54,063 bases of DNA from a virus. Shown one piece after another: positions 646 through 54,063 of the stretch. Location: positions 1 to 54,063 of IMG/VR virus record IMGVR_UViG_3300042923_000886. One strand, written 5' to 3'. The position numbers were made by a program, and so were the translations under genes. The notes below the pieces were generated by a model, which made no database searches, had not been told where the DNA came from, and saw only the letters and a program-made list of their open reading frames with translations. Within the stretch, counting starts at the first letter, position 1. The number at the start of each line of letters is the position of its first letter.

Positions 646-660
646 ATTAATCAAAAAAGT
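600..660. other. Probable attL junction of prophage 1 in comM
   Basis: The sequence fits comM up to about position 620 (gcagcgatgaa) and then becomes phage-like and AT-rich. The integrase gene ends at 647 on the opposite strand, the usual arrangement for large serine integrases next to their att site. The crossover is inferred to lie within the ATGAA shared with the conserved ATG-AAY-CC codons of intact comM. The matching attR, with the rest of comM, is not in the window, so the core cannot be defined exactly. Confidence 0.7.
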
Positions 661-2098
661 AATTGATGAATTTCCAATATATTTTTATCCCGTTTTCTAA
701 TATTACTATTTTGCTGATTAGCATATTAACAAGATTCCGTTTTTCATCAGTGGTACCATTCCCAAATATGAGCTCTGCGGTTTTAATTATTTTTTTGCAT
801 TCTTCCACTGTCATAGATGGGGTTTTATGCGCTTCCAATTCAGACAGTTCATTTTCAAGTTGACTACGTTCTTTATGCAGCGGTTCGATTCTGCTACTGA
901 TATCATATAGAGATATTGTACCTAATTGATATAGATCCATTAACTTATTTATTTGCTTGTTGATCTCTGAAATTCTGTTACTAATAATTGGAGTCTTATC
1001 ATCAGGTGAGTACTTCTGCTTTTGATGCATCTTTTCAATTTTATTTGGGTTTAATGCCAGGTCCATTATTTCTTTTATAACTATATTATCAAGGAAGTCT
1101 TCTCTGTAATTCGGATTTTTACAATAATCAATTTTCTTCATTTCTTTGTTTCCGTCTCTCGAGTAGCAAACATAGTAATAGTAAGTTCCAACCTTTTTAC
1201 TCATGGTGCATTTGGTAAAATATCTAGCACCGCAATTGCCGCAAAATAGCATTCCTGATAATAAATGTTTACCCTTATACGGGGACTTTTGCGAGCTTGT
1301 TAAACCACGCTCCATTTCAGTGTATCTCCTTTGCGCGTTGATAAATATTTCTTCGGATACAATTGGTTTATGTCGCCCTTGATATTCTTGTCCTTTGTAT
1401 TTTATCTTACCAATGTAAAGATTGTTTCTTATGATTTGTCCGACAGTAGCATGATTATTCCATCCAGAATACTTATTACTATATTTTGAACGCATAATAC
1501 CAGTTATACCATGAATAGTGTTTCCTTGTAAAAACAAATCAAAAATTTCACGAACTTGCATTGCTTCGTACTCGTTAATTACAAGTTCACCATCAATGAA
1601 GTCATATCCGATAGGAGCTCCACTACCACCGTGCCAATAGCCATCTTTAGCCCTGCCTATATGTCCCATAGCCATTCGCTCTTTTATTTGTTCACGTTCC
1701 AATTGAGCGAATACAGAGAGAATTCCAATCATTGCTCTTCCGAATGGGGTAGAGGTGTCAAAGTTTTCGTTCATTGAAACAAAATCTACACTATTTTTCA
1801 AAAATACATCTTCGATTAAATAAAGTGTATCTTTTTGAGAACGAGACAAACGATCGAGCTTATAAACCAGTACTAAATCTATGTTTCCTGAAAGTATATC
1901 AGACAACATCTTAGAAAGTGCGGGGCGGGTAATGTTGCTTCCGGAATAACCAGGATCAGCATATACATTCACAGCGACCCATCCCTTGGCCTCACAGTAT
2001 TTTTTTAATCGTTCGGTTTGCATTGGTATTGAATATCCTTCCTCCGCTTGTTCTTGAGTAGATACCCTGATATATATTGCCACTCTTGTTCTGTTCAT
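647..2098 (-). CDS. int: Large serine recombinase, integrase of prophage 1
   Basis: A 483-residue protein with the resolvase catalytic domain first: YIRVST carries the nucleophile Ser13, followed by the conserved YKLDRLSRS segment and the FGRAMIGILSVFAQLEREQIKER helical region that leads into a recombinase domain. A zinc ribbon starts with CGNCG near residue 290 and is completed by later cysteines, and a coiled-coil region lies near residues 370-430. Large serine integrases recombine short attP and attB sites without supercoiling, and need a directionality factor for excision. Its 3' end abuts the comM junction, so it is the enzyme that placed prophage 1 there. The repressor gene lies 23 bp upstream and is co-oriented, suggesting a lysogeny operon. 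The start at 2098 has an AGGAGG-like site in the gap (ggaggtttt). Confidence 0.95.
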   Translation of the reverse strand: MNRTRVAIYIRVSTQEQAEEGYSIPMQTERLKKYCEAKGWVAVNVYADPGYSGSNITRPALSKMLSDILSGNIDLVLVYKLDRLSRSQKDTLYLIEDVFLKNSVDFVSMNENFDTSTPFGRAMIGILSVFAQLEREQIKERMAMGHIGRAKDGYWHGGSGAPIGYDFIDGELVINEYEAMQVREIFDLFLQGNTIHGITGIMRSKYSNKYSGWNNHATVGQIIRNNLYIGKIKYKGQEYQGRHKPIVSEEIFINAQRRYTEMERGLTSSQKSPYKGKHLLSGMLFCGNCGARYFTKCTMSKKVGTYYYYVCYSRDGNKEMKKIDYCKNPNYREDFLDNIVIKEIMDLALNPNKIEKMHQKQKYSPDDKTPIISNRISEINKQINKLMDLYQLGTISLYDISSRIEPLHKERSQLENELSELEAHKTPSMTVEECKKIIKTAELIFGNGTTDEKRNLVNMLISKIVILENGIKIYWKFINYFFD

Positions 2099-7484: not shown

Positions 7485-7819
7485 AGCCAAAATATTTGTA
7501 TGATATTTACGATGCAATAGAAAAAGATTATATGGTGAAGGATGCACTCAGTTGCGAGGTAACAGAGTTCATTGATATGCCTCATGAGTGTATTTCCAGA
7601 TATGCTAGAACAGGATCTCTTTACCTTGGAAGGTATCGTTTGGAGAGAAAAGATATTGAGGATGGAAAGTATAGGGAAAAAGTAAAGGAAGATATTCCTG
7701 AATACCTTATGAATGAATTCAATGCGGTGGTTGCAGATCTAAGATGGAAATGTAGTCCAGAGAAATTAAGTAAAATAACAATCACAAAAAGGTATGTTGA
7801 AGCCGGAGGTACATTATGA
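7478..7819 (+). CDS. Hypothetical early phage protein
   Basis: A 113-residue protein starting MVKPKYLYDIYDAIE. The ATG at 7478 was chosen because gaggaaggg lies about 7 bp upstream; earlier in-frame ATGs at 7436 and 7451 lack such a site. The MPHECISRYARTGSLYLGRYRLER portion looks like a small DNA-binding or winged-helix fragment, but I cannot name the family. The stop codon overlaps the start of the helicase-methyltransferase gene (ATGA). Confidence 0.55.
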   Translation: MVKPKYLYDIYDAIEKDYMVKDALSCEVTEFIDMPHECISRYARTGSLYLGRYRLERKDIEDGKYREKVKEDIPEYLMNEFNAVVADLRWKCSPEKLSKITITKRYVEAGGTL

Positions 7820-12575: not shown

Positions 12576-12635
12576 GTTGTTTGGTTATTTAGTATACATA
12601 TCACAATGCTTCTGAATGGCCATGTCATAGCTTAT

Positions 12636-12657
12636 CCCGGAGGCAGAGACCTCCGGG
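12636..12657 (+). promoter_or_regulatory. Hairpin just upstream of a ribosome-binding site
   Basis: Eight-base arms cccggagg and cctccggg enclose a 6-nt loop, followed by ggaaagg and the ATG at 12672. The left arm contains an SD-like ggagg that is paired. The two base differences near this hairpin between repeat copies fall in the loop and outside the stem. Confidence 0.55.
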
Positions 12658-12671
12658 GGAAAGGAAACATA

Positions 12672-13196
12672 ATGAATAGAATTACATCGGTTACAGAAGA
12701 TGCTAAAGAAATGGATATGCTCCAGCTGGCATATAATAAAGTTTTTATGAAGGATGGATGGGCATGGTACAGGGATTATGATAGAGAAATTCCGGTGATC
12801 GACCTAATAAAGGAGATAATACATCATCACAATTTTGATGCTGAGTTAATTTGTGCTGATTCGGATGAATTCGGAGATATCATGATGGATAACCTGCAGT
12901 ATGGTACGGATGGTATTGACGGAGTGATAGCAATATTGTATCAGACATTGTGGGCAATGACTGATATGAGAGAGCGATTAAAAACATATGAGGATACTAG
13001 CTTAGAACCAGAGGAAGTAGAAGATCTTAAGAATTCAGAGGACTACTGGCACCGAGAAGCAATCAAATGGGCAGCGCGGTTAGGAGAGAATAAAATCAAA
13101 TTCCGTAATCTACTCAATCAATTCGGAATTCCAGAGGATGATTTCAAGGATGATGAGTTAGAGAAGTTTTTATATTCCAACCGGCAGCAGGATTAA
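12672..13196 (+). CDS. Hypothetical phage protein with LKTYEDTSLEPEEV motif
   Basis: A 174-residue acidic, mostly helical protein. It contains MRERLKTYEDTSLEPEEVEDL, a segment I recognise as recurrent in hypothetical phage proteins of Lachnospiraceae, next to a coiled-coil-like C-terminus. It starts the duplicated segment and is the only gene where the two copies differ (one silent change and Ser to Pro near residue 64). Function unknown. Start supported by gaaagg. Confidence 0.65.
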   Translation: MNRITSVTEDAKEMDMLQLAYNKVFMKDGWAWYRDYDREIPVIDLIKEIIHHHNFDAELICADSDEFGDIMMDNLQYGTDGIDGVIAILYQTLWAMTDMRERLKTYEDTSLEPEEVEDLKNSEDYWHREAIKWAARLGENKIKFRNLLNQFGIPEDDFKDDELEKFLYSNRQQD

Positions 13197-13211
13197 TATA
13201 GGAGGATGCAA

Positions 13212-13775
13212 TTGAAAACCCAAGAGACAATTGATATTGAGAAAAAATTATATTCCAATACAGTAAGAATGGGTGTGTATGGAGCATTCGAGGTTACATT
13301 CGGGAGAGAAAGGGTTGATTACATAACAGTGGACCGTAAAGGGATTTGGAGAGCTTACGAGGTCAAAGTTACGAAAGCTGATTTTCATTCTAAGGCTGCT
13401 AAGAGCTTTATCGGTAATTATAACTATTATGTTATGCCGGAATGGCTGTATGAGGAAGTGAGAGCGGAAATACCTACTCATATAGGAGTAATGGATGGAG
13501 TTAGTGTATTAAAGAAACCTAAGAAAGTACCATTATCATTACCTGTTGAAACGTTGTTTATCAATATTGTATGTGCTCTTAATCGGGAAGCTGATAAATA
13601 TTATAACAATCAGGATGAGGATATTATTGCAAAATATAGAAGAGCATTAGATAGACTCGAAAAAGAAAAGGATAAGAACTATAAAAATATGTGTGAGTGG
13701 ATGGACAAATATTACAGACTTAAGGAAAAAGTTGAGAGCAAAGAGTCTAACCTATTTTCCACAGACACCTGGTAA
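13212..13775 (+). CDS. MmcB-like PD-(D/E)XK nuclease-fold protein
   Basis: A 187-residue protein. The core reads FEVTFGRERVDYITVDRKG then WRAYEVKVTKADF, giving the nuclease-superfamily signature with Asp37 and Glu50-x-Lys52, as in MmcB-like DNA repair proteins. The C-terminal third is a charged helix. The TTG at 13212 is chosen because AGGAGG sits 6 bp before it, whereas it directly touches the ATG at 13206, leaving no spacing. It probably cuts or binds DNA ends in phage recombination. Convergent overlap of 29 bp with the next minus-strand gene. An identical copy lies at 50534. Confidence 0.65.
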   Translation: MKTQETIDIEKKLYSNTVRMGVYGAFEVTFGRERVDYITVDRKGIWRAYEVKVTKADFHSKAAKSFIGNYNYYVMPEWLYEEVRAEIPTHIGVMDGVSVLKKPKKVPLSLPVETLFINIVCALNREADKYYNNQDEDIIAKYRRALDRLEKEKDKNYKNMCEWMDKYYRLKEKVESKESNLFSTDTW

Positions 13776-14031
13776 CATCAAAAATAAGCCTAACTGCCTT
13801 GATCATACCTAAGTCTACATAATCACAATCAAATATAAACTCACCTTTGTTTTCCTTGAAGACTTTAATCTCTTTGATATTAAACCGGTAGCGCATACCA
13901 TCTATTTCAACACCAAAAGAAACAGGTCTAAATTCACCGACAGTGTTATAAACAGCTGTAACGCAGATAGATAGTCCGGATCTCAAAGTATTACGGTTTG
14001 TATAGGGACGAAAGCCAAAGGCAGTAGGCAT
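13747..14031 (-). CDS. Minus-strand accessory gene of unknown function
   Basis: A 94-residue protein predicted to be beta-rich, starting MPTAFGFRPYTN. The ATG at 14031 has gaggtgataact upstream and a near-consensus promoter further up (-35 at 14091, -10 at 14068), so it is transcribed alone, against the early operon. Expression from a prophage is therefore plausible. No family recognised; no membrane segment. Duplicated at 51069. Confidence 0.65.
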   Translation of the reverse strand: MPTAFGFRPYTNRNTLRSGLSICVTAVYNTVGEFRPVSFGVEIDGMRYRFNIKEIKVFKENKGEFIFDCDYVDLGMIKAVRLIFDVTRCLWKIG

Positions 14032-14067
14032 AGTTATCACCTCATTAATATTTATTGACAGTTTATA

Positions 14068-14096
14068 ATTATAGAACATTTGTTTGTATTTTGCAA
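14068..14096 (-). promoter_or_regulatory. Promoter with a LexA-like box in its spacer
   Basis: On the minus strand TTGCAA (14091-14096), a 17-bp spacer and TATAAT (14068-14073) form a good sigma-A promoter. The spacer contains GAACATTTGTTT (14074-14085), which resembles the Gram-positive SOS box GAAC-N4-GTTY. The same 12 bases, inverted, lie at 40224-40235. LexA control is a guess. Confidence 0.5.
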
Positions 14097-14114
14097 GAAG
14101 GGAGATATAGGAAC

Positions 14115-14549
14115 ATGGCAATATTGAATTATACAACGACCATAGATGCATTTAAGACGGTATCTGAGATCGAATACATATTGATGAAGCATAAGGCTAA
14201 ATCAATCATGAAGGAATTCAATGGAGAAAGTATCACAGGATTATCCTTTTTGATTGATACCGGATTTAATCAAGTACCAATAAAGATGCCGGTCAAGGTT
14301 AATGAATGTTTAGCTGTTCTGAAGAGAGAAAAGCGAAGTGGTACAAGAACGATAAAGGATACCAAAGATCAGGCTGAGAGAGTAGCATGGAGAATTCTGA
14401 AGGATTGGATAGAGGCTCAGATGGCACTATTGGATATTGAGATGGTTCGTATGGAAGAGATATTCATGCCTTACATAGTTGATGCAGCCGGCCGGACACT
14501 GTATGAGAAGCTGGAAGAGAAGCAATTTCTTCTGACAACTCAGGAATAG
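14115..14549 (+). CDS. Conserved phage hypothetical protein
   Basis: A 144-residue protein starting MAILNYTTTIDAFKTVSEIE, a pattern I recognise as common in hypothetical phage proteins of Clostridia; the second half (KDTKDQAERVAWRILKDWIEAQ) is helical. The family is widespread but without known function. The start at 14115 has agggagatatagga upstream. Identical copy at 51437. Confidence 0.65.
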   Translation: MAILNYTTTIDAFKTVSEIEYILMKHKAKSIMKEFNGESITGLSFLIDTGFNQVPIKMPVKVNECLAVLKREKRSGTRTIKDTKDQAERVAWRILKDWIEAQMALLDIEMVRMEEIFMPYIVDAAGRTLYEKLEEKQFLLTTQE

Positions 14550-14560
14550 GAGGAAGTAAT

Positions 14561-14830
14561 TTGACACTAAATGAAATTAAGGATGGAGTAATGGCACGTT
14601 TTGTAGCCGGGGAAGAGGTAACCATCCGAATAATCAACGATAAAGGAAAGACAACCGGTACATATAAGGCAACAATAGATAGGTTTTGCCCTTCCCATAT
14701 AAGCGTATTTCATAACAATTATTATGAGAGCTTCTCCTATTGGGAATTCATGAAGTATGCAGTAAAGTACAATCAGAAGAAGAGATCAGGAGAAAAGCCG
14801 GCTAGGGTAAGAAGATCAAAGTACGCGTAG
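14561..14830 (+). CDS. Small basic phage protein
   Basis: An 89-residue protein with TTG start, supported by aggagg 7 bp upstream. Beta-rich N-terminal part and a strongly basic tail (KKRSGEKPARVRRSKYA) that may bind nucleic acid. Family unknown. Identical copy at 51883. Confidence 0.6.
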   Translation: MTLNEIKDGVMARFVAGEEVTIRIINDKGKTTGTYKATIDRFCPSHISVFHNNYYESFSYWEFMKYAVKYNQKKRSGEKPARVRRSKYA

Positions 14831-14879
14831 TTGATAAGGTAAATTAAGATTTAGCTCATTGAGCGGAAAGAAGGTAACT

Positions 14880-15233
14880 ATGAAAAAAGCAATAGAAATT
14901 CAACAGGAAAATGCAAAAACTCTCTTTGAACTTATTAAGGAGAACCCAGATTTACCAATTGTTCCTATGGTAGCAACGGAAATCGCTGCTAGTGATGATT
15001 ACTCATACTGGATGGGTAGTTGGGGTAAGGCAGAAATAGATAGTTACACTTGTCATGATGATCATATGGTTTATTTATCAGACGGAGTTAATGATATCTT
15101 TGATGATGTCCTAGAGGATACACTGGAAATACCGGACGGATTGACAGAAGAGGAACAAGATAAATTTATCGAAGATGCGGTTATGGGGCTCGATTGGACA
15201 AAGGCAATTATTGTTAGAATTGAACTTCCATAA
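14880..15233 (+). CDS. Acidic hypothetical phage protein
   Basis: A 117-residue, strongly acidic protein (MKKAIEIQQENAKTLF at the start; many Asp/Glu later). The ATG at 14880 has agaagg upstream; a perfect small hairpin, gctc-att-gagc (14854-14864), stands just before the ribosome-binding site. No motif recognised. An acidic, small phage protein could be a DNA mimic, but nothing specific supports that. Identical copy at 52202. Confidence 0.6.
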   Translation: MKKAIEIQQENAKTLFELIKENPDLPIVPMVATEIAASDDYSYWMGSWGKAEIDSYTCHDDHMVYLSDGVNDIFDDVLEDTLEIPDGLTEEEQDKFIEDAVMGLDWTKAIIVRIELP

Positions 15234-15261
15234 TAAGCTCATTGGAGCAGAAAGGATTTAT

Positions 15262-15627
15262 ATGGTTGAGGGTAAGCTAAGAGTTATTCAAGGTGGAAGC
15301 GTAACATTCTGGTATCCCGGGTGTAAAGAATACCATTCAATACATGTTGAAGGATCAGAACATCCAGTATGGAGTTTCAATGGTGATTATGAGAGTCCAA
15401 CGTTTACTCCATCAGTATTAGTCTGAAGCGGTCATTATGTACCAGGAGCAAAGAGTGATGATTGCTGGTGTAACTTCAAGGAACGTTTTCCAGAGGAAGA
15501 GGAACCACCTTTTAAGTGCGGCATATGTCATAGCTTTGTTACCAATGGAAAGATACAGTATCTCGGAGATTGCACCCATGAATTAGCAGGTCAGACAATC
15601 GACATGGTACTGCCAAGTGAGTGCTAA
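15262..15627 (+). pseudogene. DUF6527-family phage protein interrupted by an in-frame TGA
   Basis: The frame opens MVEGKLRVIQGG and contains the DUF6527 pattern: FWYPGCKEYHSI, ESPTFTPSVLV, then a TGA at 15424-15426, then SGHYVPG, CWCNF, CGICHSFV and LGDCTHELAGQTIDM, in the same frame to a stop at 15625-15627. The two halves together make a normal-length member (about 121 residues), so the TGA is most simply a nonsense change of an ancestral codon such as CGA. The N-terminal 54 residues are still translatable. The identical TGA is in the second copy at 52746. Readthrough cannot be excluded. Confidence 0.75.
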
Positions 15628-15664
15628 ACTGAAAAATTTATAATTGTACATTGAAAACTGAATA

Positions 15665-15693
15665 TTGATAGTTGATAGTAATAACTATATAAT
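15665..15693 (+). promoter_or_regulatory. Promoter of the DUF6602 cassette
   Basis: TTGATA (15665-15670), 17-bp spacer, TATAAT (15688-15693). It lies 36 bp before the DUF6602 start and is the only consensus promoter within this part of the early operon, suggesting independent expression in the lysogen. Confidence 0.65.
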
Positions 15694-15729
15694 GGACGTA
15701 GGAATAACATTAGAATAGGGGATAGATAT

Positions 15730-16536
15730 ATGAATGCTGTTATAGGTGCAATTATTGAAAATATGAAAAACATAGAAATAATCTTTGAACCAACTATTGA
15801 AGCTTTCGTAAAAGACACAAAACACACTGGTGATAGCAAAGAAGTGACTGTTGCAAATTTTATTGGAAGCTTCTTCCCAAGTTCATATGCTATAAAAAAA
15901 GGTCCTATCTATAATTTGGAATCTAATTCTCAAGAAATTGATTGTGTAATTTTGGCTCCAAATCATCCACTGCTTTTAACTCCTAAAAGGGAAGTGATTT
16001 TAGCTGAAGGGGTATATGCTGCAGTCGAGGTCAAGCCAGATATTACAACTTTAACTAATAAATCAGAATTCCATCGCGCATTATTACAAATACAATCAGT
16101 GAAAAAACTAAAAAGAACTTTACGTCTTTTGGATACTGGAAGTGTTCCTGATGAATTACAAAGAATACCATCAGTAATATTTTCAAAAAAATCAAGAACA
16201 GCGATTGAAACTATTGAGTATATGAAAAGAAGTATAAAAAGTGAAGCTATTGCACCATTTGAATTACCAGATTTAATTTTTACAATGGATCATGGTTTGA
16301 TTTATCATACTACTCATATAGAGAAAACTATTTTTACCGAATGGGTAAAACAATATTCTTCTTCTTATAATGGAGAAAGGTTTATACATATAGATACAAT
16401 GGGTGAAAATAGCTTGACGATGTTTTTAATAATTCTATTAAGTTTTAGGCCACCTGAACCTACGATATCTAATCATATTATTTTAGAATATTTAAAGGAT
16501 TCTATTAGTGTCCCATTTCATGTGATGATGCCTTAA
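15730..16536 (+). CDS. DUF6602 protein with PD-(D/E)XK nuclease-like core
   Basis: A 268-residue protein with the DUF6602 pattern: EVTVANFIGSFFPSSYAI, then EIDCVIL (Asp71) and AEGVYAAVEVKPD (Glu100, Lys102), which together make a restriction-nuclease-like active site with Glu38. DUF6602 proteins occur near restriction and antiphage genes, so a defence or superinfection role is plausible. The gene is noticeably AT-rich compared with neighbours and is bracketed by its own promoter and a strong terminator, the layout of a phage moron. A site (aggggat) precedes the ATG. Fold assignment is fairly good; target unknown. Identical copy at 53052. Confidence 0.7.
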   Translation: MNAVIGAIIENMKNIEIIFEPTIEAFVKDTKHTGDSKEVTVANFIGSFFPSSYAIKKGPIYNLESNSQEIDCVILAPNHPLLLTPKREVILAEGVYAAVEVKPDITTLTNKSEFHRALLQIQSVKKLKRTLRLLDTGSVPDELQRIPSVIFSKKSRTAIETIEYMKRSIKSEAIAPFELPDLIFTMDHGLIYHTTHIEKTIFTEWVKQYSSSYNGERFIHIDTMGENSLTMFLIILLSFRPPEPTISNHIILEYLKDSISVPFHVMMP

Positions 16537-16545
16537 ATGTTTATG

Positions 16546-16583
16546 AACTACCAACTATCAGTATTCGGTTGGTAGTTTTTTAT
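16546..16583 (+). terminator. Rho-independent terminator after DUF6602
   Basis: A 10-bp perfect stem, aactaccaac (16546-16555) with gttggtagtt (16568-16577), followed by a T run. It ends the DUF6602 cassette. Confidence 0.85.
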
Positions 16584-16629
16584 TGCGACAAACTGAAATT
16601 TAGCTGCATGGCAGCAGAAAGGAATAACA

Positions 16630-16845
16630 ATGGCACAGAGAGATATTATCAGACCAAAGGTTACATATCACAATGCTACAGACATGGCCTATTATCCAAA
16701 CGACCTAAAGACTGAATTGCAGTGGAAAAAGCTCGGATATAAACTAAAAGATAATGCTGAAGAATTCAAATTATGGTCAAACCCTCATCATCATAATTTA
16801 TGTAGATATTATTTACGCGAGGATGTTGAGGAGATTCATAAGTGA
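16630..16845 (+). CDS. Small hypothetical phage protein
   Basis: A 71-residue protein beginning MAQRDIIRPKVTYHN, with an HHHN histidine cluster near residue 53. A hairpin (gctgc-atg-gcagc, 16603-16615) and agaaagg precede the ATG. No family recognised. Its first 112 bp are repeated at the right end of the window. Confidence 0.55.
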   Translation: MAQRDIIRPKVTYHNATDMAYYPNDLKTELQWKKLGYKLKDNAEEFKLWSNPHHHNLCRYYLREDVEEIHK

Positions 16846-32865: not shown

Positions 32866-34017
32866 ATGGTTATAGTTACATTTTCAGACAATGGTATTAC
32901 ATATGATAAAAATGCATTCTTCCAGTATGACTATGGACAGAAAATTGAAGTTCATGGTTTAAATCTTCCTGACGGTACTCAGTTCCATTTCGCTAATAAA
33001 GGTGCAGGAGCAGTTGCTAAAATAAGTACAACGGTTGGTGAAGTGACCACGGTGGATGTTCCACAGAGCGTTCTGCTTCTTCATGGGGAAATGAACGTAT
33101 ATATTTATTCAACCTCTGAGACAAGTGGTATCACCATTAAAAGTATAACATTCAATGTTAAGGGTAGAGAGAAGCCGGGTGATTATGCTCCTCCGGATGA
33201 GCCGAACATCATTGAAGAGTTACAAGCCAAGCTGGATCAGATAATTGCAACTGGTATCGCTTCATATACACCGGATCCGCAGGATGTTATCGATATTATT
33301 GATGACTATGTGCCGGGAAACTTGATTACGAATAATGATATTGCCACAATACCAGGAACAGCTTGGGATGCAGTAAGGGGTAAAGCAGCAAGGGACGATA
33401 TTACAATCCTTCAGAATGATAAATTAGATAAAAACGGAGATACGAAGGACAATACAGTATCATTCACAGAGGCAGTAGTTGAGGCTGATATCAATACAAC
33501 CGAAACCCATGCAACGATATTCGGAAAGATAAAAAAATCCATAAAGACATTTAGAACATCAATTGCTGAAAAATTCGCACTTTCAAATATTATACATACA
33601 ACTGTGGTGAACGATACAACTAAGGTACCAAGCTCTGCGGTAACCTACAGTTTAGCGCAGAGTGTTCAGACGCTAAATGATAATTTAGTAGTGGAAGATT
33701 TATCATCATCCGTGACTGTTTCATTAACCGGATTAGTCATTAAATTAAGACGATACGGCAAACATGTTTATGTGTTAGACTTTGCATATTCAGGAACCGC
33801 GGAGATAACAAATGGTATAGTTTGCGCTATCTTGACAAATTCAGATTTTATGCCAATGTCAGATACTCTCGGGGCCTTAACCGCGTATAATACAACACTT
33901 ATTTATAACACTCCTATGTTAACTGTTAGCTCCGGTTCTCAGATAACCATTAGTGGCTGCACGGTTGCATCAGGTACGTTGGCTGTAATCAGTGGGCAAG
34001 TGATATGGATTAGATAG
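32866..34017 (+). CDS. Receptor-binding/baseplate protein with a variable C-terminal tip
   Basis: A 383-residue protein with a BppU-like N-terminal domain (about residues 1-110, FSDNGITYDKNAFFQYDYGQ...), a helical linker (EELQAKLDQIIATG, IIDDYVPGN...) and a C-terminal beta-rich tip starting after YSLAQSVQTLNDNLVVED. ATG 32866 chosen because gaggtgatcag precedes it. The last ~120 codons can be exchanged for the silent cassette at 34021-34389 by inversion between the 54-bp inverted repeats at 33645 and 34334, keeping the frame. Receptor binding is inferred from position and structure. Confidence 0.78.
   Translation: MVIVTFSDNGITYDKNAFFQYDYGQKIEVHGLNLPDGTQFHFANKGAGAVAKISTTVGEVTTVDVPQSVLLLHGEMNVYIYSTSETSGITIKSITFNVKGREKPGDYAPPDEPNIIEELQAKLDQIIATGIASYTPDPQDVIDIIDDYVPGNLITNNDIATIPGTAWDAVRGKAARDDITILQNDKLDKNGDTKDNTVSFTEAVVEADINTTETHATIFGKIKKSIKTFRTSIAEKFALSNIIHTTVVNDTTKVPSSAVTYSLAQSVQTLNDNLVVEDLSSSVTVSLTGLVIKLRRYGKHVYVLDFAYSGTAEITNGIVCAILTNSDFMPMSDTLGALTAYNTTLIYNTPMLTVSSGSQITISGCTVASGTLAVISGQVIWIR
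33645..33698 (+). repeat. Inverted repeat, left arm of the tip-switch segment
   Basis: The 54 bases match the minus strand of 34334-34387 at 42 positions. Two 13-base blocks are identical, CTACAGTTTAGCG (33645-33657) and TAAATGATAATTT (33674-33686). Both copies encode YSLA.S..T.NDN.VVED in the same phase. Confidence 0.88.
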
Positions 34018-34020
34018 CTA

Positions 34021-34389
34021 TTAAATATCTAATCTCCACCGCACAGATAACCGCATATATATCTTATGTGTGGTATATGTAGCAACTTCAATCCCTAAAG
34101 ATGATATTTGTACCCACGCTATATTAGGAGTTGTTACTCCATCATAATTTATGCCATATCCTCCCTGCACCCCAGATAAAGGCTGTATGTTTGTTGGTAA
34201 CGACGTGATTATACCTCCGAGCGCATCAATTTGCAAGACGGTATATAGAATAGCCTCTTTGCCAACCTTTTTGCAGGAAAACTCCAATACTGATACGACA
34301 TTCGAACCAAAAGTAAAGCTACTCTGTGGATAGTCTTCTACCACAAAATTATCATTTATCGTATTGATAGAATTCGCTAAACTGTAGTT
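34021..34389 (-). pseudogene. Silent alternative C-terminal tip cassette
   Basis: The open frame starts inside the right inverted repeat (NYSLANSINTINDNFVVED) and continues to RLSVRWRLDI, 122 residues, similar in length to the expressed tip (124 codons from the same point). It has no start codon with a ribosome-binding site and no upstream coding partner, so it would be silent in this orientation. Its internal sequence (SGVQGGYGINYDG) differs from the expressed tip, suggesting a different binding specificity. Confidence 0.75.
34334..34387 (-). repeat. Inverted repeat, right arm of the tip-switch segment
   Basis: Read on the minus strand, this matches 33645-33698 with 42 of 54 identities. The identical 13-base blocks lie at 34375-34387 and 34346-34358. 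Confidence 0.88.
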
Positions 34390-34419
34390 TCTAAAATAAA
34401 AATAGAAAGGATTTATTGA

Positions 34420-34734
34420 ATGGAAAAAATAATTATTAGTGGTACATCGTTTAATCTTGTACCTATGGGAATATCACAAACGGAAAAGAAAAGAAGCTTC
34501 ACTATTTCATCTGAGCTAACTTATGACGAAATTGAAGTAGCATTTTCAGATGTGTCTAACATAAGGTATACATCTGAAGCTGATGAAATTTTAAAGGTGT
34601 TTATGGATGGTATATCAGTTAAAACCATCTCTAAGGACTTTGAAAACAGTACTTATATAATCGAGATCAGCATTGATGCGGTTGAAGCTGAGTTAAAGCA
34701 ATTGCGAACTCAAGTCGCTGCGTTATTTGAATAA
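34420..34734 (+). CDS. Small tail-region protein
   Basis: A 104-residue beta-rich protein (MEKIIISGTSFNLVPMG..., LTYDEIEVAFSDVSNIRYTSEADEIL), ending in a coiled-coil stretch. The site agaaagg precedes the ATG. Similar small proteins occur between tail fibres and holins in Clostridia phages. Function unknown. Confidence 0.6.
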   Translation: MEKIIISGTSFNLVPMGISQTEKKRSFTISSELTYDEIEVAFSDVSNIRYTSEADEILKVFMDGISVKTISKDFENSTYIIEISIDAVEAELKQLRTQVAALFE

Positions 34735-35312: not shown

Positions 35313-35765
35313 ATGAGTAAAATTAAAACATTAGTAACTGGATTTTTCGCTATGTTAGCAGGCTGGTTAGGGATATTAGCAATCCCCATGTTGATACTTA
35401 TAATCTGTAATGTGGCCGATTATGTGACAGGCTTAGTGGCGAGTAAGTATCGCAATGAACAGATAAACAGCTACAAGAGTTTTCGAGGTATTGCTAAGAA
35501 AGTATGTATGTGGTTACTGGTAGGAGTAGGAGCTATAATTGATTGGCTTATGATTTATGCTGGTGAAACAGCAGGTATAACAATGCCTTTTACATTTTTA
35601 GTAGCTTGTATCGTGGCAATTTGGCTTATTTGCAATGAGATTATAAGTATTCTCGAAAACATGGTTGATATAGGAGTTGATCTTCCTCCGTTCTTAGCAC
35701 CCATTATAAAAAATATCAAGACACAAGTTGAAAATAAGGCTACTGTGAAGGAGAATGATGCATAA
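35313..35765 (+). CDS. Phage holin
   Basis: A 150-residue membrane protein with hydrophobic segments near residues 10-40, 66-86 and 90-112, fitting the holin 4 family (VADYVTGLVASKYRNEQINSYKSFRGI signature). It permeabilises the membrane so the amidase can reach the wall. TAATG overlap with the endolysin gene. Confidence 0.88.
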   Translation: MSKIKTLVTGFFAMLAGWLGILAIPMLILIICNVADYVTGLVASKYRNEQINSYKSFRGIAKKVCMWLLVGVGAIIDWLMIYAGETAGITMPFTFLVACIVAIWLICNEIISILENMVDIGVDLPPFLAPIIKNIKTQVENKATVKENDA

Positions 35766-36448
35766 TGAATATTACAAAGCGATATATGACAAAGAACCGA
35801 TGCTATTCCAGACCAGTAAAACTGAAGGTTCAGAAGCTTGTACTTCACTCTCTCGGGGTAGCTCAGCCGAATGCATATGTACTGATCAACTCATGGGACA
35901 ACCAAGAGGCTGATAAATGTGTACATGCCTTTATCATGGAACACGAAGTCATTCAGACTCTTCCTTGGGATCGTAAGGGATGGCATGTAGGAAGCGGTAG
36001 CAAGGGATCATGGAATAGCTGCTCGATCGGTATTGAGATCTGCGAGCCTTCCGGACATAAATACAATGGGGGCACTATGGTCGGCTATGATGTAAAGAAG
36101 AATTCAGCCTACTTTGCAGCGGTATATAACAATGCTGTGGAGTTATTTGCTTTCCTCTGTAAAGAACATAATCTGAATCCTATAGAAGATGTATATTGTC
36201 ACAGTGAAGTAAATAAGCTTGGTTATGGATCTAATCATGCAGATGTAATGCAATGGTTCCCGAAGCACGGAAAGAGCATGGCCACATTCCGAGAAGATGT
36301 AAAGAATAAACTAGAAGAGATACTGGAGCCTAAAAAAATTACCATTTACAGGGTGCAAGTTGGAGCGTTCGGATCAAAAGAGAATGCTAACCGTCTTGTT
36401 AAAGAGCTTGAGGTAAAAGGTTATAAACCTATTATCACAGAGGGTTGA
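35765..36448 (+). CDS. N-acetylmuramoyl-L-alanine amidase (endolysin) with short SPOR tail
   Basis: A 227-residue endolysin. The Amidase_2 domain has LVLHSLG, VHAFIMEHEVIQTLPW, SIGIEICE and a later CHSEVNKLGYGSNHADVMQWF with the zinc-binding residues. The C-terminus starts a SPOR domain (IYRVQVGAFGSKENANRLVKEL) but ends at KPIITEG, about half the usual length. It cleaves the amide bond in peptidoglycan. The short SPOR may be a natural form or the result of DNA insertion at the prophage boundary. Confidence 0.92.
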   Translation: MNITKRYMTKNRCYSRPVKLKVQKLVLHSLGVAQPNAYVLINSWDNQEADKCVHAFIMEHEVIQTLPWDRKGWHVGSGSKGSWNSCSIGIEICEPSGHKYNGGTMVGYDVKKNSAYFAAVYNNAVELFAFLCKEHNLNPIEDVYCHSEVNKLGYGSNHADVMQWFPKHGKSMATFREDVKNKLEEILEPKKITIYRVQVGAFGSKENANRLVKELEVKGYKPIITEG

Positions 36449-36669: not shown

Positions 36670-37482
36670 TTAATATCCTACTGCTTTGACACCATATTCG
36701 GCTTGATCACTTGTAAATCCTTCATACACCAATTGGTCGATTAGTTCTGTGCGTGAGAATGAAGAGGTATCAAGATAATTTTGCGCGCAGGCTGTAGCTT
36801 GTTCATTCCAATCTGCGCCACAGTTATCAGCACCATATGTAGCTTCATCAGTTGTATATTTTTCATATTCTAACTGTTCAATCAACCCACTATATGAGAA
36901 TGAAGTGGTATCAAGGTAGTTTAAAGCAGCAGCTAATGCTTGTTCATTCCAATTTGCACCACAGTTATCAGCCGCAAAAGTTGCATCTTCAATAGAATAA
37001 TTTTCATATTCTAATTGATCAATAAGGCCAAAATAAGAAAATGGCGTAAAAGACAAATAGTTATTAGCAGACTTTAATGCGTTTTCCTCCGACAATGTCA
37101 TTTCGGAAACAGTTGTTTCTTCTGTCGGGGTTATCGTAGGCTCTAAAGTAGGTTTCTCAGTTGGAACAACTTTGTTATCACTCTCCACTGCAGTTTCTGT
37201 TATATCTGCAGAATAATCTGTTGTTATGCTGGCATCATCGCCTTGGTTCATCATAGATCCAATCACACCTATCATGAAAAATAATCCAATAACAATCAGG
37301 ATAGCGGTTAAGCAACCGCGCTTTTTCTTTTTAGGTTGTTGCGTATAAGGACTTTGCTGATATTGTTGTTCAAGTATAACTGGCGGTGGTACTTGCTGTG
37401 ATTGATTTTGCTGTTGTGCCGGAGTTCCACAACTTGAGCAAAAATTACCACTGAATTCTGTTCCGCATTTATTACATATCAT
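36670..37482 (-). CDS. Ltp-repeat membrane protein with zinc ribbon, likely superinfection exclusion
   Basis: A 270-residue protein. An N-terminal zinc ribbon (CNKCGTEFSGNFCSSCG) faces the cytoplasm, a single membrane segment lies near residues 55-78, and a Thr/Glu-rich linker follows. The C-terminus has three ~47-residue repeats with NY-LSFTPFSYFGLIDQLEYENYS, DATFAADNCGANWNEQA. These are host cell surface-exposed lipoprotein (Ltp, PF07553) repeats, known from the streptococcal phage TP-J34 protein that blocks DNA entry of other phages. Here the anchor is a transmembrane helix and no lipobox is seen. A consensus promoter (37519-37547) precedes it, so it should be expressed in lysogens. Exclusion function is inferred from family. 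Confidence 0.85.
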   Translation of the reverse strand: MICNKCGTEFSGNFCSSCGTPAQQQNQSQQVPPPVILEQQYQQSPYTQQPKKKKRGCLTAILIVIGLFFMIGVIGSMMNQGDDASITTDYSADITETAVESDNKVVPTEKPTLEPTITPTEETTVSEMTLSEENALKSANNYLSFTPFSYFGLIDQLEYENYSIEDATFAADNCGANWNEQALAAALNYLDTTSFSYSGLIEQLEYEKYTTDEATYGADNCGADWNEQATACAQNYLDTSSFSRTELIDQLVYEGFTSDQAEYGVKAVGY

Positions 37483-37987: not shown

Positions 37988-39577
37988 TTAAATATCCACA
38001 ACCTTAGGGTTTATGCTGATTGTGAAGTTAGTATTATCACGGTTTCCCTTCTTGTTGTGTTCGGTTTTTAGGTAACTGATACTAGAAACGATATCTCGTA
38101 AAGCATCATTCTTCGCGGCAGCAGTTGGAAGATCATAATAATGGGTTAGAATATTATCTGCCATGGGAATAAAGATATCATTATAATTCGACTGCTGAGC
38201 CAACGCGGATAATTCAATTTCTGTTTTATTAATCAATGATAATAACCGTTCTCCCTCCTCCTCAATCTTCTTGTTACGTTCCTTAAAGATATCAACGGAA
38301 TAGACTCCTTGCTCTAAGAGCGTATATAGTTTATCTCTTTGAGTATTTAACTTCTCATGATTTGATCTTAGCTGTTCCAGTACCATTTCAGTATCCTTGA
38401 TTGCCTTGGAATATGGCATATCAAATCTCTCGGATTCCCACTTTGCCTTAAAATTAATAAGCCAATTACGCAGTGCATCAATCACAACTTCTTCCACTAG
38501 ATAGAGGGGGGAAGATATATTATCACAATACACATTCGGACATTTGATGGTATCATACGGTGTCTTAGTATTCTGTGCTAGCCTGGTCATTAAAGTTCCA
38601 CACTTGGAACAGTAGATCAGTCCGGTAAGAGGGTTCTTCAATATGCTACTACCAGGTACCGGAGCATGTCCTCTCTTAGCAATTACAGTTTGAACCTCTT
38701 TGAAGGTAGCTTCACTGATGATAGGTTCATGTAAGCCTTTTACTTCGATGTATTCTTCTGACTTTCTCCGAACCTTAGATATTTTACTGTCCTTTGCAAC
38801 CTTTTTCTCCTTGCGATAGGACCAGCGGATCATTCCGAAGTAAACAGGGTTCTTCAATATGTCGGTAATAGAAGACTTGGTCCATTTATCATTGACAAGT
38901 GGTTTAATTCCAATTTCATTCAGTTTCCGCGCTATTCTGGTAGCACCTAATTTGAGGTAAGTATTATCCGGTTGCAGATCACCGATGGTATACCACTCGA
39001 AGATCTTCTTAATAATATCTGCCTGTTCGGGTATTATAGTAAGCGTAAATCCTTTATCACCGGCTATCTTGATCCTATCATAACCATAGGGAGCGGTTGA
39101 ACCAAGAAATTTCCCTTCCTTTGCAGATGCAATACGTCCACGCTGGATACGTCTATTTATTGTCTTATACTCTCGTCGGCTCATAAAGAGATTAAATTCG
39201 AAGTACTCTTCATCAAACTCATTCTCAGGATCAAAAGTCTTATTAGGAGTGATAATCTTAGTATTAGAGATCTTAAAAGCTTGTGCAACTAACCCTTGAT
39301 CAATGGTATCTCCTCTGGCAAGTCGTTCTATCTCCATGACCAAGACACCATCCCAGGCACTTTCTGATACTTCGGTTAACAATTGTTGCATAACTGGACG
39401 TGCAGCAATAGTCTCACCAGATACAACCTCTCGGTAAATATCAGTTACATGGATCCGTAGTTTATTGGCTAACGATAATAGATGCTTTTCATGGCGAAGA
39501 AGTGTCTCGACTTCACCTTGAGCTTCTAATTCAATATCAGCTCTGGATTTTCTTAAGTACATCACATACTTTGCCAT
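37988..39577 (-). CDS. int: Large serine recombinase, integrase of prophage 2
   Basis: A 529-residue protein. The catalytic serine is in YLRKSRAD (Ser11), followed by VMEIERLARGDT, a recombinase domain (GSTAPYGYDRI, WTKSSITDILKNPVYFGMI) and a zinc ribbon (LIYCSKCGTL, later CPNVYC), then a long coiled coil (residues ~400-470). It differs in sequence from the first integrase, so it should use another attachment site. The ATG at 39577 is chosen because ggagg precedes it; an upstream in-frame start lacks one. Repeated AAGCTCTG motifs precede it. Confidence 0.93.
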   Translation of the reverse strand: MAKYVMYLRKSRADIELEAQGEVETLLRHEKHLLSLANKLRIHVTDIYREVVSGETIAARPVMQQLLTEVSESAWDGVLVMEIERLARGDTIDQGLVAQAFKISNTKIITPNKTFDPENEFDEEYFEFNLFMSRREYKTINRRIQRGRIASAKEGKFLGSTAPYGYDRIKIAGDKGFTLTIIPEQADIIKKIFEWYTIGDLQPDNTYLKLGATRIARKLNEIGIKPLVNDKWTKSSITDILKNPVYFGMIRWSYRKEKKVAKDSKISKVRRKSEEYIEVKGLHEPIISEATFKEVQTVIAKRGHAPVPGSSILKNPLTGLIYCSKCGTLMTRLAQNTKTPYDTIKCPNVYCDNISSPLYLVEEVVIDALRNWLINFKAKWESERFDMPYSKAIKDTEMVLEQLRSNHEKLNTQRDKLYTLLEQGVYSVDIFKERNKKIEEEGERLLSLINKTEIELSALAQQSNYNDIFIPMADNILTHYYDLPTAAAKNDALRDIVSSISYLKTEHNKKGNRDNTNFTISINPKVVDI

Positions 39578-49899: not shown

Positions 49900-49957
49900 T
49901 TTAGAGCCATTTAGTATACATATCACAATGCTTCTGAATGGCCATGTCATAGCTAAT

Positions 49958-49979
49958 CCCGGAGGCTGAGACCTCCGGG
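49958..49979 (+). promoter_or_regulatory. Hairpin upstream of a ribosome-binding site, copy 2
   Basis: Same 8-bp stem as at 12636-12657 with one loop base changed. Confidence 0.55.
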
Positions 49980-49993
49980 GGAAAGGAAACATA

Positions 49994-50518
49994 ATGAATA
50001 GAATTACATCGGTTACAGAAGATGCTAAAGAAATGGATATGCTCCAGCTGGCATATAATAAAGTCTTTATGAAGGATGGATGGGCATGGTACAGGGATTA
50101 TGATAGAGAAATTCCGGTGATCGACCTAATAAAGGAGATAATACATCATCACAATTTTGATGCTGAGTTAATTTGTGCTGATCCGGATGAATTCGGAGAT
50201 ATCATGATGGATAACCTGCAGTATGGTACGGATGGTATTGACGGAGTGATAGCAATATTGTATCAGACATTGTGGGCAATGACTGATATGAGAGAGCGAT
50301 TAAAAACATATGAGGATACTAGCTTAGAACCAGAGGAAGTAGAAGATCTTAAGAATTCAGAGGACTACTGGCACCGAGAAGCAATCAAATGGGCAGCGCG
50401 GTTAGGAGAGAATAAAATCAAATTCCGTAATCTACTCAATCAATTCGGAATTCCAGAGGATGATTTCAAGGATGATGAGTTAGAGAAGTTTTTATATTCC
50501 AACCGGCAGCAGGATTAA
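49994..50518 (+). CDS. Hypothetical phage protein, second copy
   Basis: Second copy of 12672-13196, differing by one silent base and one Ser-to-Pro change near residue 64. See that entry for the description. Confidence 0.65.
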   Translation: MNRITSVTEDAKEMDMLQLAYNKVFMKDGWAWYRDYDREIPVIDLIKEIIHHHNFDAELICADPDEFGDIMMDNLQYGTDGIDGVIAILYQTLWAMTDMRERLKTYEDTSLEPEEVEDLKNSEDYWHREAIKWAARLGENKIKFRNLLNQFGIPEDDFKDDELEKFLYSNRQQD

Positions 50519-50533
50519 TATAGGAGGATGCAA

Positions 50534-51097
50534 TTGAAAACCCAAGAGACAATTGATATTGAGAAAAAATTATATTCCAATACAGTAAGAATGGGTGTGT
50601 ATGGAGCATTCGAGGTTACATTCGGGAGAGAAAGGGTTGATTACATAACAGTGGACCGTAAAGGGATTTGGAGAGCTTACGAGGTCAAAGTTACGAAAGC
50701 TGATTTTCATTCTAAGGCTGCTAAGAGCTTTATCGGTAATTATAACTATTATGTTATGCCGGAATGGCTGTATGAGGAAGTGAGAGCGGAAATACCTACT
50801 CATATAGGAGTAATGGATGGAGTTAGTGTATTAAAGAAACCTAAGAAAGTACCATTATCATTACCTGTTGAAACGTTGTTTATCAATATTGTATGTGCTC
50901 TTAATCGGGAAGCTGATAAATATTATAACAATCAGGATGAGGATATTATTGCAAAATATAGAAGAGCATTAGATAGACTCGAAAAAGAAAAGGATAAGAA
51001 CTATAAAAATATGTGTGAGTGGATGGACAAATATTACAGACTTAAGGAAAAAGTTGAGAGCAAAGAGTCTAACCTATTTTCCACAGACACCTGGTAA
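50534..51097 (+). CDS. MmcB-like nuclease-fold protein, second copy
   Basis: Identical to 13212-13775, including the TTG start and AGGAGG at the same spacing. Confidence 0.65.
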   Translation: MKTQETIDIEKKLYSNTVRMGVYGAFEVTFGRERVDYITVDRKGIWRAYEVKVTKADFHSKAAKSFIGNYNYYVMPEWLYEEVRAEIPTHIGVMDGVSVLKKPKKVPLSLPVETLFINIVCALNREADKYYNNQDEDIIAKYRRALDRLEKEKDKNYKNMCEWMDKYYRLKEKVESKESNLFSTDTW

Positions 51098-51353
51098 CAT
51101 CAAAAATAAGCCTAACTGCCTTGATCATACCTAAGTCTACATAATCACAATCAAATATAAACTCACCTTTGTTTTCCTTGAAGACTTTAATCTCTTTGAT
51201 ATTAAACCGGTAGCGCATACCATCTATTTCAACACCAAAAGAAACAGGTCTAAATTCACCGACAGTGTTATAAACAGCTGTAACGCAGATAGATAGTCCG
51301 GATCTCAAAGTATTACGGTTTGTATAGGGACGAAAGCCAAAGGCAGTAGGCAT
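51069..51353 (-). CDS. Minus-strand accessory gene, second copy
   Basis: Identical to 13747-14031, with the same promoter and LexA-like box. Confidence 0.65.
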   Translation of the reverse strand: MPTAFGFRPYTNRNTLRSGLSICVTAVYNTVGEFRPVSFGVEIDGMRYRFNIKEIKVFKENKGEFIFDCDYVDLGMIKAVRLIFDVTRCLWKIG

Positions 51354-51389
51354 AGTTATCACCTCATTAATATTTATTGACAGTTTATA

Positions 51390-51418
51390 ATTATAGAACA
51401 TTTGTTTGTATTTTGCAA
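51390..51418 (-). promoter_or_regulatory. Promoter with LexA-like box, second copy
   Basis: Identical to 14068-14096; the box is at 51396-51407. Confidence 0.5.
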
Positions 51419-51436
51419 GAAGGGAGATATAGGAAC

Positions 51437-51871
51437 ATGGCAATATTGAATTATACAACGACCATAGATGCATTTAAGACGGTATCTGAGATCGAATACA
51501 TATTGATGAAGCATAAGGCTAAATCAATCATGAAGGAATTCAATGGAGAAAGTATCACAGGATTATCCTTTTTGATTGATACCGGATTTAATCAAGTACC
51601 AATAAAGATGCCGGTCAAGGTTAATGAATGTTTAGCTGTTCTGAAGAGAGAAAAGCGAAGTGGTACAAGAACGATAAAGGATACCAAAGATCAGGCTGAG
51701 AGAGTAGCATGGAGAATTCTGAAGGATTGGATAGAGGCTCAGATGGCACTATTGGATATTGAGATGGTTCGTATGGAAGAGATATTCATGCCTTACATAG
51801 TTGATGCAGCCGGCCGGACACTGTATGAGAAGCTGGAAGAGAAGCAATTTCTTCTGACAACTCAGGAATAG
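51437..51871 (+). CDS. Conserved phage hypothetical protein, second copy
   Basis: Identical to 14115-14549. Confidence 0.65.
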   Translation: MAILNYTTTIDAFKTVSEIEYILMKHKAKSIMKEFNGESITGLSFLIDTGFNQVPIKMPVKVNECLAVLKREKRSGTRTIKDTKDQAERVAWRILKDWIEAQMALLDIEMVRMEEIFMPYIVDAAGRTLYEKLEEKQFLLTTQE

Positions 51872-51882
51872 GAGGAAGTAAT

Positions 51883-52152
51883 TTGACACTAAATGAAATT
51901 AAGGATGGAGTAATGGCACGTTTTGTAGCCGGGGAAGAGGTAACCATCCGAATAATCAACGATAAAGGAAAGACAACCGGTACATATAAGGCAACAATAG
52001 ATAGGTTTTGCCCTTCCCATATAAGCGTATTTCATAACAATTATTATGAGAGCTTCTCCTATTGGGAATTCATGAAGTATGCAGTAAAGTACAATCAGAA
52101 GAAGAGATCAGGAGAAAAGCCGGCTAGGGTAAGAAGATCAAAGTACGCGTAG
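51883..52152 (+). CDS. Small basic phage protein, second copy
   Basis: Identical to 14561-14830. Confidence 0.6.
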   Translation: MTLNEIKDGVMARFVAGEEVTIRIINDKGKTTGTYKATIDRFCPSHISVFHNNYYESFSYWEFMKYAVKYNQKKRSGEKPARVRRSKYA

Positions 52153-52201
52153 TTGATAAGGTAAATTAAGATTTAGCTCATTGAGCGGAAAGAAGGTAAC
52201 T

Positions 52202-52555
52202 ATGAAAAAAGCAATAGAAATTCAACAGGAAAATGCAAAAACTCTCTTTGAACTTATTAAGGAGAACCCAGATTTACCAATTGTTCCTATGGTAGCAACG
52301 GAAATCGCTGCTAGTGATGATTACTCATACTGGATGGGTAGTTGGGGTAAGGCAGAAATAGATAGTTACACTTGTCATGATGATCATATGGTTTATTTAT
52401 CAGACGGAGTTAATGATATCTTTGATGATGTCCTAGAGGATACACTGGAAATACCGGACGGATTGACAGAAGAGGAACAAGATAAATTTATCGAAGATGC
52501 GGTTATGGGGCTCGATTGGACAAAGGCAATTATTGTTAGAATTGAACTTCCATAA
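52202..52555 (+). CDS. Acidic hypothetical phage protein, second copy
   Basis: Identical to 14880-15233. Confidence 0.6.
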   Translation: MKKAIEIQQENAKTLFELIKENPDLPIVPMVATEIAASDDYSYWMGSWGKAEIDSYTCHDDHMVYLSDGVNDIFDDVLEDTLEIPDGLTEEEQDKFIEDAVMGLDWTKAIIVRIELP

Positions 52556-52583
52556 TAAGCTCATTGGAGCAGAAAGGATTTAT

Positions 52584-52949
52584 ATGGTTGAGGGTAAGCT
52601 AAGAGTTATTCAAGGTGGAAGCGTAACATTCTGGTATCCCGGGTGTAAAGAATACCATTCAATACATGTTGAAGGATCAGAACATCCAGTATGGAGTTTC
52701 AATGGTGATTATGAGAGTCCAACGTTTACTCCATCAGTATTAGTCTGAAGCGGTCATTATGTACCAGGAGCAAAGAGTGATGATTGCTGGTGTAACTTCA
52801 AGGAACGTTTTCCAGAGGAAGAGGAACCACCTTTTAAGTGCGGCATATGTCATAGCTTTGTTACCAATGGAAAGATACAGTATCTCGGAGATTGCACCCA
52901 TGAATTAGCAGGTCAGACAATCGACATGGTACTGCCAAGTGAGTGCTAA
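52584..52949 (+). pseudogene. DUF6527-family protein with in-frame TGA, second copy
   Basis: Identical to 15262-15627, including the in-frame TGA at 52746-52748. Confidence 0.75.
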
Positions 52950-52986
52950 ACTGAAAAATTTATAATTGTACATTGAAAACTGAATA

Positions 52987-53015
52987 TTGATAGTTGATAG
53001 TAATAACTATATAAT
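52987..53015 (+). promoter_or_regulatory. Promoter of the DUF6602 cassette, second copy
   Basis: Identical to 15665-15693 (TTGATA, 17 bp, TATAAT). Confidence 0.65.
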
Positions 53016-53051
53016 GGACGTAGGAATAACATTAGAATAGGGGATAGATAT

Positions 53052-53858
53052 ATGAATGCTGTTATAGGTGCAATTATTGAAAATATGAAAAACATAGAAA
53101 TAATCTTTGAACCAACTATTGAAGCTTTCGTAAAAGACACAAAACACACTGGTGATAGCAAAGAAGTGACTGTTGCAAATTTTATTGGAAGCTTCTTCCC
53201 AAGTTCATATGCTATAAAAAAAGGTCCTATCTATAATTTGGAATCTAATTCTCAAGAAATTGATTGTGTAATTTTGGCTCCAAATCATCCACTGCTTTTA
53301 ACTCCTAAAAGGGAAGTGATTTTAGCTGAAGGGGTATATGCTGCAGTCGAGGTCAAGCCAGATATTACAACTTTAACTAATAAATCAGAATTCCATCGCG
53401 CATTATTACAAATACAATCAGTGAAAAAACTAAAAAGAACTTTACGTCTTTTGGATACTGGAAGTGTTCCTGATGAATTACAAAGAATACCATCAGTAAT
53501 ATTTTCAAAAAAATCAAGAACAGCGATTGAAACTATTGAGTATATGAAAAGAAGTATAAAAAGTGAAGCTATTGCACCATTTGAATTACCAGATTTAATT
53601 TTTACAATGGATCATGGTTTGATTTATCATACTACTCATATAGAGAAAACTATTTTTACCGAATGGGTAAAACAATATTCTTCTTCTTATAATGGAGAAA
53701 GGTTTATACATATAGATACAATGGGTGAAAATAGCTTGACGATGTTTTTAATAATTCTATTAAGTTTTAGGCCACCTGAACCTACGATATCTAATCATAT
53801 TATTTTAGAATATTTAAAGGATTCTATTAGTGTCCCATTTCATGTGATGATGCCTTAA
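53052..53858 (+). CDS. DUF6602 nuclease-like protein, second copy
   Basis: Identical to 15730-16536, with the same promoter and terminator. Confidence 0.7.
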   Translation: MNAVIGAIIENMKNIEIIFEPTIEAFVKDTKHTGDSKEVTVANFIGSFFPSSYAIKKGPIYNLESNSQEIDCVILAPNHPLLLTPKREVILAEGVYAAVEVKPDITTLTNKSEFHRALLQIQSVKKLKRTLRLLDTGSVPDELQRIPSVIFSKKSRTAIETIEYMKRSIKSEAIAPFELPDLIFTMDHGLIYHTTHIEKTIFTEWVKQYSSSYNGERFIHIDTMGENSLTMFLIILLSFRPPEPTISNHIILEYLKDSISVPFHVMMP

Positions 53859-53867
53859 ATGTTTATG

Positions 53868-53905
53868 AACTACCAACTATCAGTATTCGGTTGGTAGTTT
53901 TTTAT
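53868..53905 (+). terminator. Terminator after DUF6602, second copy
   Basis: Identical to 16546-16583. Confidence 0.85.
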
Positions 53906-53951
53906 TGCGACAAACTGAAATTTAGCTGCATGGCAGCAGAAAGGAATAACA

Positions 53952-54063
53952 ATGGCACAGAGAGATATTATCAGACCAAAGGTTACATATCACAATGCTA
54001 CAGACATGGCCTATTATCCAAACGACCTAAAGACTGAATTGCAGTGGAAAAAGCTCGGATATA
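53952..54063 (+). CDS. Small hypothetical phage protein, second copy, 3' cut by the window end
   Basis: First 112 bp of the gene at 16630-16845, identical so far as visible. Confidence 0.55.
   Translation, partial: MAQRDIIRPKVTYHNATDMAYYPNDLKTELQWKKLGY

Follow-up and report, generated by a model that had tools for sequence, protein, structure and literature searches.

A prophage receptor-binding protein with a probably invertible C-terminal tip and a candidate crossover site shared with hsdS shufflons

The C-terminal tip of the receptor-binding protein (RBP) of a prophage in IMG/VR record IMGVR_UViG_3300042923_000886 is probably invertible, in the style of the Rin shufflon of bifidophages and the PsrA system of pneumococcus (we put the probability at roughly 0.8). 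The recombinase would be a tyrosine recombinase acting in trans, plausibly the invertase of a host hsdS locus or that of a neighbouring prophage. The whole record of 54,063 nucleotides was analysed and is referred to below as the window. In the proposed mechanism, two unrelated tip domains lying tail to tail are flanked by inverted copies of a short site embedded in codons for (L/I)-N-D-N-(L/F). Recombination between both TAAATGATAATTT cores by a XerD/PsrA-like tyrosine recombinase would turn a 685-bp segment, so that the constant N-terminus would continue in frame into the hitherto silent tip and its counterpart would go silent. A lysogen population would then yield particles with one tip or the other, presumably differing in the surface bound. 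The enzyme would be supplied by a host or plasmid hsdS restriction-modification shufflon with an identical site, or by a truncated second prophage.

The record is a contig carrying two tandem prophages. The left boundary of prophage 1 is marked by a broken comM gene (1-645) and, after it, a large serine integrase (647-2098, minus strand); the prophage spans the tail genes, the RBP gene and an amidase endolysin (35765-36448). The gene split by the prophage is comM/YifB, of the Mg-chelatase family, and the end of the serine integrase lies 2 bp from the break (window 1-2098). Prophage 2 opens with a second large serine integrase (37988-39577, minus strand; 64% to the large serine recombinase of phage G001, described below) and is cut off at 54063. 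A repeat of 4,155 bp is shared between the tandem prophages (12587-16741 and 49909-54063, 99.9%, 4 mismatches), and the contig ends where the second copy ends; the duplicate is either the result of recent exchange between the neighbouring prophages or an assembly effect. Prophage 1 encodes, at its right end, a lipoprotein with three Ltp repeats (36670-37482, minus strand; PF07553, a family of superinfection-exclusion lipoproteins), and positions 7816-10317 encode a single 833-aa phage protein in which a SNF2-type helicase is fused to an N6/N4 DNA methylase.

The RBP gene runs on the plus strand from an ATG at 32866, with a good ribosome-binding site (AGGTGA), to a stop at 34017. Its constant N-terminal part (32866-33673) is followed by a tip, here called tip A (33689-34017), which forms the C-terminus expressed at present; the N-terminal domain is common to G001, L020 and the tail fibre gp16 of phiRg519T2. 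On the minus strand an opposed frame (34386-34021) contains tip B (34021-34343), which its open frame (P0001), its codon score and the layout in relatives mark as a probable silent alternative C-terminus without a start of its own. This frame has the top codon score among the six frames under phage codon usage, with 0 stops, and reads open outward past the repeat with 121 codons intact. The ORF coordinates confirm what had been described beforehand, namely that the opposed frame stops 3 bp from the RBP stop and that the two tips, counted from a common TAC codon with the stop included, are 124 and 122 codons long. A start codon near a ribosome-binding site was sought in the opposed frame and none was found, again as first described. 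Just beyond the right arm of the repeat lies a small plus-strand gene with its own ribosome-binding site (34420-34734), a homologue of which also follows the tips in phage L042. No Pfam domain was detected in the RBP or in either tip. Protein and DNA searches of phage and viral collections returned nothing close to the RBP or the minus tip, scans of genome contigs found no relatives, and single-sequence AlphaFold models of the two tips (pLDDT 36 and 45) were uninformative.

Each tip begins in one arm of an inverted repeat, the left arm at 33642-33698 (plus strand, encoding YSLAQSVQTLNDNLVVED) and the right at 34334-34390 (minus strand, encoding YSLANSINTINDNFVVED), with 77% identity over 57 nt (BLAST E 1e-6) and the same codon phase in both. 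The 54-bp in-frame repeat of the preliminary description is thus real and in phase, but the in-frame arms share 41 of 54 identities, the reported 42 being the best 54-nt window. By comparison, inverted 54-nt matches at 970 other places of the window had a mean of 28 and a maximum of 34 identities. The differences between the arms fall mostly at third (7) and first (5) codon positions, with one at the second, and the resulting amino-acid changes are conservative (V/I, L/I, Q/N, L/F). The putative left recombination-site core, TAAATGATAATTTAG (33674-33688, plus strand), is assigned by its match to hsdS inversion sites; with its flanking C it forms the dyad CTAAAT-GATA-ATTTAG. The right core, TAAATGATAATTTTG (34344-34358, minus strand), has one mismatch to the left, and the 13 central bases are identical between arms. 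At up to one mismatch the 15-mer TAAATGATAATTTAG is found in the window in the two arms only (15/15 left, 14/15 right), against 0.04 occurrences expected.

Inversion in silico between the cores (33674-34358, 685 bp) keeps the frame, a 381-aa RBP ending in tip B replacing the 383-aa RBP ending in tip A. The earlier proposal of an in-frame exchange of the expressed tip by inversion is well supported by comparison, in that the frame is kept, the layout recurs and the site matches those of hsdS loci; the event itself is unseen. The record holds one orientation only, and the swapped orientation, which had been suggested as a sign to look for in related phages, was absent among near-identical record pairs.

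An opposed-tip layout was also found in four divergent phages (G001, L042, L029 and L145). The first of these, IMGVR_UViG_3300042923_001064, was reached by searching with the tail protein encoded upstream (69% identical) and has a 127-bp terminal repeat, from which it is taken to be circular. Its RBP faces an opposed tip across exact inverted cores, TAAATAATAATTTAGC. A further pair of opposed tips, lacking an N-terminus and flanked by TAAATAATAATTTA, follows the endolysin (L015:549-1295) and is a silent store of two additional tips. This pair adjoins the serine integrase, and its use requires either that the inverted segment include the lysis genes or that two inversions follow one another. 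All four tip sites of G001 have a common 14-bp core of the TAAAT-N5-ATTTAG type. Homology (43% over 63 aa, E 1e-10) links G001's opposed tip to the tip that L029 expresses, and further homologues are found at the tail fibre or tailspike ends of other phages, which argues that silent frames of this kind encode real tips. The layout is present in L042 despite a different, BppU-like N-terminus. In L029 the RBP is followed by an opposed tip, with an in-frame 10-bp core ATACAGGAGG, and directly thereafter by a tyrosine recombinase. L145 (IMGVR_UViG_2843061431_000003) is arranged as RBP, opposed tip, XerD/PsrA-like tyrosine recombinase, third tip and opposed fourth tip. TTAAATGGTAAAA occurs there as an exact match four times and no more, once at each tip start and with orientation alternating from copy to copy, where 0.52 are expected even at 2 mismatches; the locus is a Rin-like shufflon.

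Further relatives of these recombinases are located in the hsdS loci of type I restriction systems, and it is here that the site of the window recurs. The opposed hsdS genes of L119 and L163 carry TAAATGATAATTTAG, identical to the left core of the window at 15 of 15 bases, and in the hsdS of L164 the first 14 bases are the same (14/14). In all three the site is read in the codon phase of the window (N-D-N-L). Among the loci first compared, a set without L163-L165, the exact 15-mer was confined to pieces derived from the window and from L119. L163 is a human-gut scaffold, and L163-L165 are labelled as phage yet carry hsd genes, so their true origin is uncertain. Related sites of the form TAAAT-N5-ATTTAG occur in the hsdS loci of E. 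faecium and L. cremoris plasmids (TAAATCATCATTTAG), and TAAATACTAATTTAG, together with close variants of this form, in the hsdS of L. salivarius. The G001 site differs from the 15-mer of the window by one base and that of L145 by more. In silent cassettes, whether of hsdS or of tips, the sites have otherwise unrelated flanks. Part of the site identity could nevertheless stem from N-D-N-L codons that HsdS and the coiled coils of RBPs share for reasons at the protein level. Two other hsdS loci with related recombinases, L139 and L118, have different cores (AGAGCGATAAAT and TAAACAAGAATTTAG, respectively), suggesting that the choice of site varies within the recombinase family.

These comparisons bear on two readings in which the tip is not at present switched. 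LNxNL-like coils are common in fibres and no inversion event was observed, so the opposed frame might be a separate or spurious antisense frame lying beside a repeat of a common coiled-coil motif. We consider this very improbable given the shared codon phase, the matching tip lengths and the lack of an RBS-linked start, to which are added the layout in five phages, the four alternating exact sites of L145 and the exact hsdS match. No relative was found that carries the minus tip as an independent gene starting on its own, an arrangement that would have spoken against inversion. Alternatively, the locus may be a frozen relic, once invertible and since locked by arm drift or by loss of the enzyme. 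The arms are 76% identical, the right core has its mismatch, prophage 1 has no enzyme and a single orientation is recorded. However, the silent frame is intact across 121 codons, the arms agree at the 13 central bases of the core, and hsdS sites of this type likewise vary outside the core, and we regard a relic as unlikely.

With regard to the enzyme, neither a small serine invertase nor a tyrosine recombinase was found in the record (no PF00589 match in the window), and no hsd genes were seen near the tips. The earlier remark that no invertase is visible nearby holds for these classes, but it overlooked the two large serine recombinases, of approximately 480-530 aa, both of which look like prophage integrases. 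No other recombinases were found in the record, and the large serine recombinase of G001 adjoins its silent tip pair, so one of them might be supposed to invert the tips. This is very improbable. Large serine integrases normally recombine a pair of unlike att sites and not identical repeats, and each of those in the window sits, integrase-like, at the left end of its prophage. Furthermore, the enzyme beside the tips in L145 and L029 is a tyrosine recombinase, the site matches the hsdS sites of tyrosine recombinases, and 48 relatives of the large serine recombinases were scanned with 0 further tip pairs beside them. As prophage 1 has no tyrosine recombinase, the enzyme would have to come in trans, and the initial guess of an invertase encoded in the host or elsewhere fits.

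G001 encodes a XerD-like tyrosine recombinase approximately 15.5 kb from its integrase. Relatives of this enzyme lie directly beside the RBP gene in L029, L100, L120 and L147, the last three without an opposed tip. In these four a conserved leader of about 150 bp, TTTGCTATA...TATAGCAAA with a hairpin, lies upstream of the recombinase (alignment A6). Many other relatives occupy the early region in clostridial phages, away from any tips, and the presence of a recombinase in G001 alone is therefore no proof of its role. In the recombinase tree the hsdS-linked and RBP-linked copies fall into different clades, and the action of an hsdS enzyme on the tips is accordingly a prediction and not a result.

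Two sources in trans were weighed. The main rival to a host hsdS enzyme is a recombinase of the G001, L145 or L029 type, encoded on prophage 2 past the end of the contig and flipping the same tip. Both the integrase (64%) and the repressor of prophage 2 resemble those of G001, whose recombinase lies at a distance from the integrase that corresponds to just where the window ends, and RBP-linked recombinases are known from L145 and L029 as well as, without an opposed tip, from L100, L120 and L147. Against this, the record stops before that stretch, prophage 1 has no such gene at the corresponding place, and the exact 15-mer is found in hsdS loci, the G001 site being one base off and the L145 site more. 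We regard a prophage 2 enzyme as a serious candidate, albeit at somewhat less than even odds. The exact site match favours the host enzyme. It may be, and we suggest this tentatively, that the enzyme of a host hsdS shufflon also flips the tips and that the tip sites copy its crossover site, hence the lack of an invertase of their own.

The inversion of prophage RBPs by tyrosine recombinases is already known from bifidophages; there, even an inverted locus without a recombinase, in the tRNA-Met phages, has been described and an enzyme acting in trans proposed (PMC6109161). The new elements here are that the layout recurs in further phages, that G001 keeps a second tip pair apart from the first, and that the tip site is identical to the sites of hsdS shufflons. 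Fibre switching by tyrosine recombinases is thereby extended past bifidophages to further temperate phages, and tip loci and hsdS shufflons are seen to have a recombinase family and site in common, in one case to the base. A limited search of open papers turned up no account of a phage fibre being acted on by an hsdS invertase. If an hsdS enzyme does act on the tips in trans, then one enzyme would run both the switch in host defence and the one in phage adsorption, phage host range would be coupled to the epigenetic and defence switch of the host, and fibre inversion loci without a visible invertase would be accounted for.

Among known systems, the Gin/Cin/Min inversions of Mu, P1 and p15B switch receptor specificity by inverting fibre ends, as is proposed here. 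Mu inverts with the serine invertase Gin, and in all three a small serine invertase lies beside the segment, whereas the window has only its two large serine recombinases. The comparison with Mu in the preliminary description consequently stands for function but not for mechanism, the sites of the window being of the tyrosine-recombinase hsdS type.

PsrA of pneumococcus acts on a 15-bp inverted repeat within hsdS (PMC7096588). The PsrA/XerA hsdS shufflons (S. pneumoniae cod; E. faecium, L. salivarius and L. cremoris plasmids; gut L163-L165) resemble the window in their opposed silent half-genes, in their sites of about 15 bp, and in having the core TAAATGATAATTTAG or TAAAT-N5-ATTTAG within coding sequence in the same codon phase. 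They differ in that they target hsdS and have the recombinase in the locus, whereas the target in the window is the RBP, with no hsdM/hsdS/hsdR locus near the tips and no tyrosine recombinase in the record. L145 is like the window in having an RBP and opposed tips, with sites of related form that in L145 are coded by LNGK, but it encodes a recombinase itself and has two pairs of tips, four in all.

The Rin shufflon inverts the RBP tips of prophages of bifidobacteria, and the inversions have been observed (Mavrich et al. 2018, PMC6109161), whereas the window is seen in one orientation only. As in the window, a constant RBP N-terminus is combined with alternative C-termini that share a short in-frame site. 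Rin uses 8-11 bp sites, TTCCCTAACCC or CAGGGTTA, and a XerD-like tyrosine recombinase without an arm domain; the arms of the window carry TAAATGATAATTTAG instead of the rix site TTCCCTAACCC. The XerD-like invertase is present at the Rin locus, as a recombinase is in L145 and L029, while the window has none and a single opposed pair. Unlike Rin, the site of the window is that of hsdS shufflons, and G001 holds a second tip pair past its lysis genes.
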